From positions 1,426,001 to 1,490,000 of the forward strand of contig NC_013522.1 of assembly GCF_000024905.1 (NCBI RefSeq): a stretch of DNA of 64,000 bases, in the 5' to 3' direction. The DNA comes from Thermanaerovibrio acidaminovorans DSM 6589 (GTDB taxonomy: Bacteria > Synergistota > Synergistia > Synergistales > Synergistaceae). The position numbers were made by a program, and so were the translations under genes. The first letter of the stretch is position 1. Each line of letters opens with the position of its first letter. Shown piece by piece: positions 13,724-19,624 of the stretch. The notes under the pieces are model-generated. The model saw only the letters and a program-made list of their open reading frames with translations. It searched no databases and was not told the DNA's origin.

Positions 13724-13799
13724 GGTCCCATCGTCCAGAGGCCTAGGACGCCGGGTTCTCAGCCCGGAAACAGGGGTTCGAATCCCCTTGGGACTGCCA
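13724..13799 (+). tRNA. tRNA-Glu (CTC), copy 1
   Basis: 76 nt. The acceptor GGTCCCA pairs with TGGGACT (first pair G-U), the discriminator is G, and CCA is encoded. The anticodon stem CCGGG/CCCGG encloses loop TTCTCAG with anticodon CTC, which reads GAG codons; GAG is abundant in these GC-rich genes. The T-arm is CAGGGG-TTCGAAT-CCCCT. It is identical to copy 2 at 15277-15352. Confidence 0.95.
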
Positions 13800-15276: not shown

Positions 15277-15352
15277 GGTCCCATCGTCCAGAGGCCTAGG
15301 ACGCCGGGTTCTCAGCCCGGAAACAGGGGTTCGAATCCCCTTGGGACTGCCA
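15277..15352 (+). tRNA. tRNA-Glu (CTC), copy 2
   Basis: Every base matches copy 1 at 13724-13799, including the encoded CCA and the anticodon CTC. Confidence 0.95.
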
Positions 15353-16894: not shown

Positions 16895-16915
16895 GGGGGC
16901 CCCGCTGGAGCCCCC
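16895..16915 (-). terminator. Weak hairpin after rlmN
   Basis: On the minus strand GGGGGC, a 9-nt loop, GCCCCC, then TTTAGCGG. The stem is short and the T-run poor, so termination here is only probable. Confidence 0.35.
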
Positions 16916-16919
16916 GGCC

Positions 16920-18308
16920 CTACCTCCCCTTGTTCCTGCCGGCCCCGCCGGGGCGCTTGCCCCTAGGACCGTTGCCCCTTGGCCCCCGGGGGCGCCCCGC
17001 GGGCCCCGGACCACTCCGGTCCCGCTTGCCCGGGCCCTCGCCCCGGGGCCGGTTCCCCTCCGGCGCGGACCTTCCCCCTGCGGCGGGCTTTTTATGTCCT
17101 CCCCTGCGGGATCCGCCGGAGTCGCCACCACTGGCCTTTCCGCCCTCCCCCTTGGAGGCCGAAGCCTGCCGGCGGCCCCCCTTGTTGGGGCCCCTGTCGG
17201 GCTTCGAATCCCCCGCAGGACCTGGGGCCTTGGGGGCCTGCTCGCCCCCCCTTTGGCCCCCCTGGGGGCTGGCCTCCTGGATCCCAGGGGACACCTGGCG
17301 CCGGAGCTGCCCGCAGGCGCCTCCCACGTCGGAGCCCTTGCTCTGCCTCATGGCCACCGGGTAGCCCATGGCGGTCAGCAGGTCCCCGAAGGCCCTGACC
17401 CGGAAGGGCGGCGAGGGCCTGAAGCGCTGGTCCCCCACGCAGCTGCCGGGGATCAGGTTTACGAAGGCGGAGAGCCCCTTCAGGTACTCCCCCAGCTGCC
17501 TGGCCATGGGCACCGAATCGTTCACCTGGTCGAACAGGGAGTACTCTATGGTTATCCTGTCACCGGTGATCTCCTGGTACTCCATGAGGGCCCTCTTGAG
17601 CTCCTTCAGGGGGTACTGGGCGTTTATGGGGACCAGCTGGTCCCTTAGCTCGTCGTTCGGGGCGTGCAGGGATACCGCCAACCTAACCCCCAGCCCCTCC
17701 CGGGCGAGGTTAAGTATCCCGGGGATGATCCCGCTGGTGGAGACGGTGATGTGTCTTATGCCCAGCCCCCTCATCTTGGGGTGGTTCAGGTTCCTTATGG
17801 CCCCGATCAGGTTGTGGTAGTTAAGCATGGGCTCCCCCATCCCCATGAAGACCAGGTTCTTTATCTCCCCAAGCCGGGCCTCCATGGCAAGAAACTGGCC
17901 CACCATCTCCCCCACGGTCATGTTCCTCTCGAACCCCGACTGACCGGTGGCGCAGAAGGGACAGCCCAAGGGGCAACCCACCTGGGTGGACACGCAGGCG
18001 GTGATCCGCCCCGGGTGCCATATGGCCACCGACTCCACCGAGGACCCGTCGAAGTCGAAGAGGAACTTCTTGGTCCCGTCCCTGCCGGAGGCCCTCATGC
18101 CCAGCATCTTGGGCAGCCCCACCCGGAATGCCCCGTCCAGCCTATTCCGCAACTCCAACGACAGGTCGCTCATCAGCTGGAACTCGAAGACGTGCCGTCG
18201 GTAGAACCACCCACAAACCTGATCCGCCCGGAAGCGCTTCTCCCCCAGGGCCTCCATCTCCCTGACCCAATCCTCGTAGGATAGGGACAGGGCATCCATC
18301 TTAGACAT
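16920..18308 (-). CDS. rlmN: Dual-specificity 23S rRNA/tRNA A2503 methyltransferase with a long basic low-complexity tail
   Basis: 462 aa against about 340-350 for typical RlmN. This radical-SAM enzyme methylates C2 of A2503 in 23S rRNA and A37 of some tRNAs. The 4Fe-4S motif is CPFCATGQSGFERN, preceded by STQVGCPLG. The SAM/GEP region is FMGMGEPMLNYHN. The resolving Cys is in SDVGGACGQLRRQ (about residue 332). After about residue 337 the protein continues for about 125 residues rich in Gly, Arg, Pro, Lys and Ser (for example GRPRGPRGNGPRGKRPGG), resembling RGG-type RNA-binding tails. The start at 18308 has GGAGGA 7 nt upstream. It lies 32 nt after glyA and is probably co-transcribed with it. 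Confidence 0.93.
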   Translation of the reverse strand: MSKMDALSLSYEDWVREMEALGEKRFRADQVCGWFYRRHVFEFQLMSDLSLELRNRLDGAFRVGLPKMLGMRASGRDGTKKFLFDFDGSSVESVAIWHPGRITACVSTQVGCPLGCPFCATGQSGFERNMTVGEMVGQFLAMEARLGEIKNLVFMGMGEPMLNYHNLIGAIRNLNHPKMRGLGIRHITVSTSGIIPGILNLAREGLGVRLAVSLHAPNDELRDQLVPINAQYPLKELKRALMEYQEITGDRITIEYSLFDQVNDSVPMARQLGEYLKGLSAFVNLIPGSCVGDQRFRPSPPFRVRAFGDLLTAMGYPVAMRQSKGSDVGGACGQLRRQVSPGIQEASPQGGQRGGEQAPKAPGPAGDSKPDRGPNKGGRRQASASKGEGGKASGGDSGGSRRGGHKKPAAGGRSAPEGNRPRGEGPGKRDRSGPGPAGRPRGPRGNGPRGKRPGGAGRNKGR

Positions 18309-18340: not shown

Positions 18341-19624
18341 TCACCGGGCCTCCACCCAGGGCTCCCTCATGGAGGTGTAGAGGGGGAAGGCCAGGCTCAT
18401 CTCCCGCACCTGGCCAGCCAGCCTCTCCAGCTCCTGATGGTTGTCCCTCAAGGCGATGGCCCGGTCTATGATCTCCGCTATGGTCCTCATCTCCACCGGA
18501 CCCAAGCCCCGGGTGGTCAGCGCGGCGGTGCCCAGCCTTATGCCGCTGGCAACCATGGGCTTCTCCGGGTCGAAGGGGATCATGTTCTTGTTGCAGGCTA
18601 TGCCGATCCGATCCAGGAGGACCTCCGCCTCCTTGCCGGTGATCCCCTTGGAGCGGAGGTCCACTAGTAACAGATGGTTGTCGGTCCCGCCACTCACCAG
18701 CCGGAAGCCCCGATCCATCAGGGCCTCCGCCAGGGCCTTGGCGTTAAGGACCACGTTCCGGGCGTACTCCTTGAAGTCCTCCCTCATGGCCAGGTGGAAG
18801 CAGACCGCCTTGCCCGCCATCACGTGGACCAGGGGCCCACCCTGGATGCCCGGGAAGACCGTCCTGTCCAGCTGAGCGGCGTACTGGGACCTGCACAGCA
18901 CCAAAGCCCCCCTGGGCCCCCGCAGGGTCTTATGGGTGGTGGTGGTCACGAAGTCCGCGTGGGGAACCGGGCTTGGGTGGACTCCCCCCGCCACCAGCCC
19001 CGCTATGTGGGCCATGTCCACCATGAGGACCGCCCCCACCTCCTGGGCGATCCGGGCGAAGGCCTCGAAGTCTATGAACCGGGGATAGGCGCTGGCCCCC
19101 GCCACGATGACCCGGGGACGATGCTCCAGGGCCAGCTGGCGTACCTGGTCGTAGTCGATGGTCTCCGTGTCGGGCCTGACCCCGTAGCCCACCACGTTGT
19201 ATATGAGCCCCGTGAAGTTGAGCGGATGCCCGTGGGACAGGTGCCCCCCCTGGTCCAGCTTCATGGCCAACATGGTGTCCCCGGGCTTCATGACCGCGAA
19301 GTAGACCGCCATGTTGGCGGTGGTCCCCGAGTGGGGCTGCACGTTGGCATGCTCCGCTCCGAAGAGCTCCTTGGCCCGGCGGATCGCCAGGTCCTCTATC
19401 TCCTCCACGAACTCGCAGCCCCCGTAATACTTCTTGTGAGGGTAACCCTCCGCGTACTTGTTGGTGAGAATGGACCCCTGGGCCTCCAGGATGGCCCGGG
19501 GAACGAAGTTCTCCGACGCGATCATCTCCAGGCCAGCCCTCTGCCTGCCCTGCTCCCGAACCATCAGACCGTAAAGGTCCCCGTCCACCTTCCCTATGGA
19601 AGCCTCGAAGTCCGCCCCACTCAT
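18341..19624 (-). CDS. glyA: Serine hydroxymethyltransferase
   Basis: 427 aa, full length. It interconverts serine and glycine with tetrahydrofolate as one-carbon carrier, using PLP. The PLP lysine is in [31 protein letters not shown] is the conserved cofactor-aspartate region, and [14 protein letters not shown] the substrate/cofactor binding segment. It is transcribed toward rlmN. The upstream divergent region holds a 22-bp perfect palindrome (19661-19682). In an amino-acid fermenter it links serine/glycine breakdown to the folate pool. Confidence 0.97.

Follow-up and report, generated by a model that had tools for sequence, protein, structure and literature searches.

A long basic C-terminal tail on RlmN of Thermanaerovibrio acidaminovorans and its family, and its possible role as an RNA tether

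Results

The rlmN locus and the catalytic core

The window analyzed here is a stretch of 64,000 nucleotides (positions 1426001–1490000) from the single-contig, 1,848,474-base genome of Thermanaerovibrio acidaminovorans DSM 6589. It carries an rlmN gene with a C-terminal extension; the features at the locus, in window coordinates, are the following.

18341..19624, minus strand: glyA-like ORF, by inspection a serine hydroxymethyltransferase gene, located 32 bp upstream of rlmN
16920..18308, minus strand: rlmN, dual-specificity RNA methyltransferase with a C-terminal extension, 462 aa
17304..18308, minus strand: RlmN catalytic core, residues 1–335 (N-terminal domain, radical-SAM barrel, and methyl-carrying Cys loop), by TIGR00048 and Pfam RlmN_N/Radical_SAM
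17994..17996, minus strand: Cys105, equivalent to E. coli Cys118, invariant in 33 sequences and aligned to 3rf9
17952..17975, minus strand: CX3CX2C radical-SAM cluster motif, residues 112–119 (CPLGCPFC), by invariant columns
17313..17315, minus strand: Cys332, the methyl-carrying Cys (E. coli Cys355), in ACGQL, invariant in 33 sequences and aligned to 3rf9
16923..17303, minus strand: basic Gly/Arg/Pro/Lys/Ser-rich tail of 127 residues, predicted to be disordered, by composition, codon usage, pLDDT, and tails in relatives
16895..16915, minus strand: G+C-rich, terminator-like hairpin of 9 bp directly 3' of the rlmN stop, followed by 3 U

The glyA-like ORF and rlmN are probably co-transcribed, and the same gene order is found in a member of the same genus (G175). 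The hairpin, with a z of -1.1 against shuffles, agrees with rlmN ending at 16920, weakly on its own. Elsewhere in the window, two tRNA-Glu(CTC) genes lie on the plus strand at 13724–13799 and 15277–15352 with 1.5 kb between them, an apparent local duplication.

Residues 1–335 score 325.6 bits against TIGR00048, above its curated cut-off of 290, and match Pfam RlmN_N and Radical_SAM. In the alignment of 33 sequences, the cluster cysteines C112, C116, and C119 are invariant. The AlphaFold model gives the core a pLDDT of about 95, and its best Foldseek matches in the PDB are the RlmN structures 6fz6, 5hr7, and 3rfa, with a TM-score by target of 0.94 for 6fz6 and 0.88 for 5hr7. The protein therefore has the core domains, the CX3CX2C motif, both catalytic cysteines, and the fold of known RlmN enzymes (TIGR00048; E. 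coli 3RFA/5HR7 and Sphaerobacter 6FZ6). Since the core retains every invariant catalytic residue, the enzyme is plausibly active. Cfr is related to it in fold and mechanism (9p0p was also matched), but the window protein is not Cfr: it reaches 204.8 bits against TIGR04432, whose cut-off is 550, and the Cfr models score far under their cut-offs. The RlmN core of this genus forms a long branch (0.52) and scores below most relatives with TIGR00048, which may reflect unusually fast evolution.

A basic tail follows the core in frame

The core ends at C332-GQL, and 127 in-frame residues follow before the stop codon at 16920–16922. The sequence-only reading, which had described a complete core up to the ACGQL Cys and then a basic Gly/Arg/Pro/Lys tail at 16920–17303, is confirmed, and its interval, the tail plus the stop, is exact. 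The tail contains 24% K+R and 7% D+E (net +21), 2% hydrophobic residues, and no aromatic residue. Nearly all of it has a pLDDT under 50 in the AlphaFold model and lacks secondary structure, so that it is predicted to be intrinsically disordered.

Could the tail be an artefact, with an indel or a lost stop having joined rlmN to a G+C-rich spacer? Local G+C does peak there, at 0.74, and the tail can be read without a stop in other frames too. When its bases are shuffled, the frame stays open in 25% of cases, so that its length alone is unremarkable in this genome; the net charge of the tail, too, lies within the base-shuffle range. The hydrophobic depletion is of another kind, as 0 of 500 base shuffles are as low. 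Synonymous codons drawn according to the base composition of the tail match the codon usage of 34 long ORFs of the window less well than the codons actually present do (P 0.0005). Among relatives, eleven pairs allowed dS to be measured and offered 163 or more aligned tail codons; their tail dN/dS is 0.13–0.49. Two further pairs, among them one from the window's own genus, have tails that align over a shorter length and give 0.40 and 0.51. Some pairs have a member in common, so not all are independent. Length differences between paired tails are in-frame indels. The cores of the compared pairs give 0.03–0.23, and evolution is much faster in the tail than in the core.

Taking together the hydrophobic depletion, the codon usage, the dN/dS values, and the conservation across the family, we conclude on sequence grounds that the window tail is real, translated, and under purifying selection. 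An artefact is hardly credible for a single-contig genome in which the tail's codon usage fits, when the two other members of the genus and relatives throughout the family also have tails, under purifying selection and at loci of 37–68% G+C. The sequence-only reading had itself raised a spacer fused by a sequencing indel, and an absence of the tail from close relatives, as dangers to its proposal, and neither was found.

Distribution of the tail

We searched 188 Synergistota genomes, found RlmN in 161, and read the tails from extracted loci, calling a tail long when at least 30 aa follow CGQL. All three members of the window's genus encode a tail, of 163 aa in G174 and 169 aa in G175. In the latter, the tail frame is open and a frameshift at a C homopolymer interrupts the rlmN core (locus L113, single contig, about 2375–2385), which is either a sequencing error or a recent loss. 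Long tails, which measure 30–338 aa over the three families that have them, are present in 41 of the 45 genomes examined in the same family (f1); since the other four (G125, G147, G152, and G159) have short ones, the tail is dispensable within this family. Two further families have long tails in 3 of 4 (f4) and 4 of 4 genomes (f5), and 4–17 aa follow CGQL in 32 genomes of the other Synergistota families. The tailed state changes 6 times on the tree of cores. For family f10 (G178–G182), an RlmN match was obtained in 0 of 5 listed genomes, one of which is 99% complete in 2 contigs.

In a separate collection, 79 of the 80 closest RlmN loci come from other phyla and have 4–56 aa past CGQL; the remaining one (L032) is a Synergistaceae genome with a tail identical to that of G140. 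The earlier statement that RlmN ordinarily ends some ten residues beyond the Cys is right for many lineages, including the other Synergistota families, and wrong for many proteobacterial RlmN, which extend 20–33 residues past CGQL. Known RlmN structures have a C-terminal helix (PMC13001441) and many relatives end 4–33 residues past CGQL, whereas the window enzyme carries its 127 basic, predicted disordered residues. One Chloroflexota RlmN (L246, genome G329) likewise has a long basic Gly/Arg/Pro-rich tail after CGQL, judged by eye and apparently of independent origin. RlmN was present in 142 Chloroflexota genomes, and this was the only clear case noted among them; individual reading took in the longest frames, the 30 best-scoring loci, and few other frames under about 435 aa. 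In several of these Chloroflexota sequences the automatic CGQL search matched inside the core and misplaced the tail start.

Properties shared by the tails

Net charge is positive in all 48 long tails, and the Arg share rises with genome G+C, Arg taking the place of Lys (rho 0.67); such an interchange is as expected if charge is the trait that is kept. Taken singly, only 5 of 46 tails exceed base shuffles in net charge at P<0.05. The clearest departure from chance is the loss of hydrophobic residues, which goes beyond shuffles at P<0.01 in 26 of 46 tails. The RGG-like character emphasized by the sequence-only reading does not hold as a defining feature, because several family tails contain no RG dipeptide at all. 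The window tail does share RG and GR dipeptides (7 and 5) with eukaryotic RGG/RG-rich RNA-binding tails; those, however, have clustered RGG, typically with aromatic residues, whereas it has only 2 RGG and no F, W, or Y. What the tails have in common is disorder together with positive charge, not RGG.

Some tails contain more specific sequence. A linear motif, RYRSGKMK...[EA]RPxYR, is found in the otherwise divergent tails of 19 genomes from 9 genera (L118–L132 and L143–L146), and a search of the carrier genomes returned no copy outside rlmN. SGGF[VI] and a C-terminal aFxxFY recur in the RlmN tails of some genera. None of RYRSGKMK...[EA]RPxYR, SGGFV, and aFxxFY occurs in the window tail or its genus. 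The f5 tails contain 11-residue repeats, confined to RlmN in our search. Two near-identical genomes with identical cores (G021 and G022) have tails of 327 and 338 aa that differ in tandem-repeat number. Searching the window's own genome with its tail returned RlmN only; its DEAD-box protein, which ends in about 20 polar residues, its other helicase-domain proteins, and its pseudouridine synthases carry no long basic tails. In the searches made, the tail is thus confined to RlmN.

Discussion

Bacterial rRNA-modifying enzymes are usually pictured as compact domains. Here, a fast-evolving, family-wide, basic and predicted disordered tail is attached to an enzyme that is well studied and whose complexes with RNA have been solved, and the presence of tailed and tail-less RlmN orthologues in one phylum offers a clean natural experiment on such tails of RNA enzymes. 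Our literature searches on RlmN tails, RluB tails, and disorder in Synergistetes returned no account of this tail, and those on related bacterial tails nothing relevant, so the Synergistaceae tail is apparently undescribed in the literature searched. The design itself is familiar: the DEAD-box protein CYT-19 has a 50-aa basic, unstructured C-tail that is thought to tether the protein to structured RNA (PMC4211656). The window tail, net +21 and predicted to be disordered, is of the same sort, extending the C-terminus of an enzyme that acts on RNA, and the mode proposed below is the same. The likeness is one of composition and predicted disorder, on a methyltransferase in our case, and implies no common ancestry.

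We propose, as a reading somewhat better than even, that the tail is a loose electrostatic tether holding RlmN on RNA. In the Cfr–rRNA complex the C-terminal stretch touches A2503, and the substrate of both Cfr and RlmN is naked 23S rRNA (PMC13001441); for this reason we place the root of the tail at the RNA interface. The tail exits the enzyme four residues after Cys332, beside the surface that receives the substrate adenosine, and a long basic chain starting there could reach neighbouring rRNA, which is why a loose tether is favoured. Such a tether may raise the on-rate or the residence time on naked pre-23S rRNA around A2503, and perhaps on tRNA, to the benefit of modification. Selection would then retain charge and disorder rather than sequence, and sequence and length would drift fast. 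The near-universal long tails in the family, their uniformly positive charge, dN/dS below 1, and predicted disorder favour this scheme; caution comes from the shuffles, which the charge of most single tails does not exceed, from the four family members with short tails, and from the fact that most RlmN work without a tail. The suggestion of the sequence-only reading that the tail holds the enzyme on RNA is therefore kept as the most plausible mechanism, with RNA binding itself inferred from a basic, predicted disordered chain rooted at the RNA interface.

The main rival to the tether sees in the tail a low-complexity end under weak constraint, tolerated because it is soluble and basic, lengthened and shortened by repeat slippage, and of little function. 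This is possible, though we consider it clearly the less probable reading. It would fit the change of repeat number between near-identical genomes, the rapid divergence of the tails, their several losses or gains on the tree, and net charges near those of composition shuffles. Against it stand dN/dS below 1 in all measurable pairs, retention by 41 of 45 genomes in the family, a motif conserved in nine genera, and the finding of repeats and motif only in RlmN.

That same motif, kept inside otherwise divergent tails and found in rlmN only, could instead mean that the tail is a docking platform, in which short linear motifs (RYRSGKMK...[EA]RPxYR, SGGFV, and aFxxFY) bind a protein partner or a pre-50S feature and the basic spacers serve as linkers. 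The motif would have to be lost or unrecognised in the window's genus, and the window tail is left unexplained; we regard docking as unlikely in general, and where it exists it is likely restricted to species with the motif, not including the window's. A bolder version, which we hold to be a little less probable still, is that the tail, with its nine-genus motif, makes RlmN of this family an RNA chaperone or assembly factor for pre-50S particles; if this is true, methylation would be coupled to 50S assembly.

Thermal adaptation of RlmN, the other suggestion of the sequence-only reading, would suit the window's genus, which we take to be moderately thermophilic, but it is very improbable, and we reject it on 16S G+C: long tails occur at low values (G138, 0.555, tail 182; G137, 0.562, tail 204), tailed genomes span 0.555–0.597, and the genome with the highest value, G176 at 0.609, has a tail of 6 residues.
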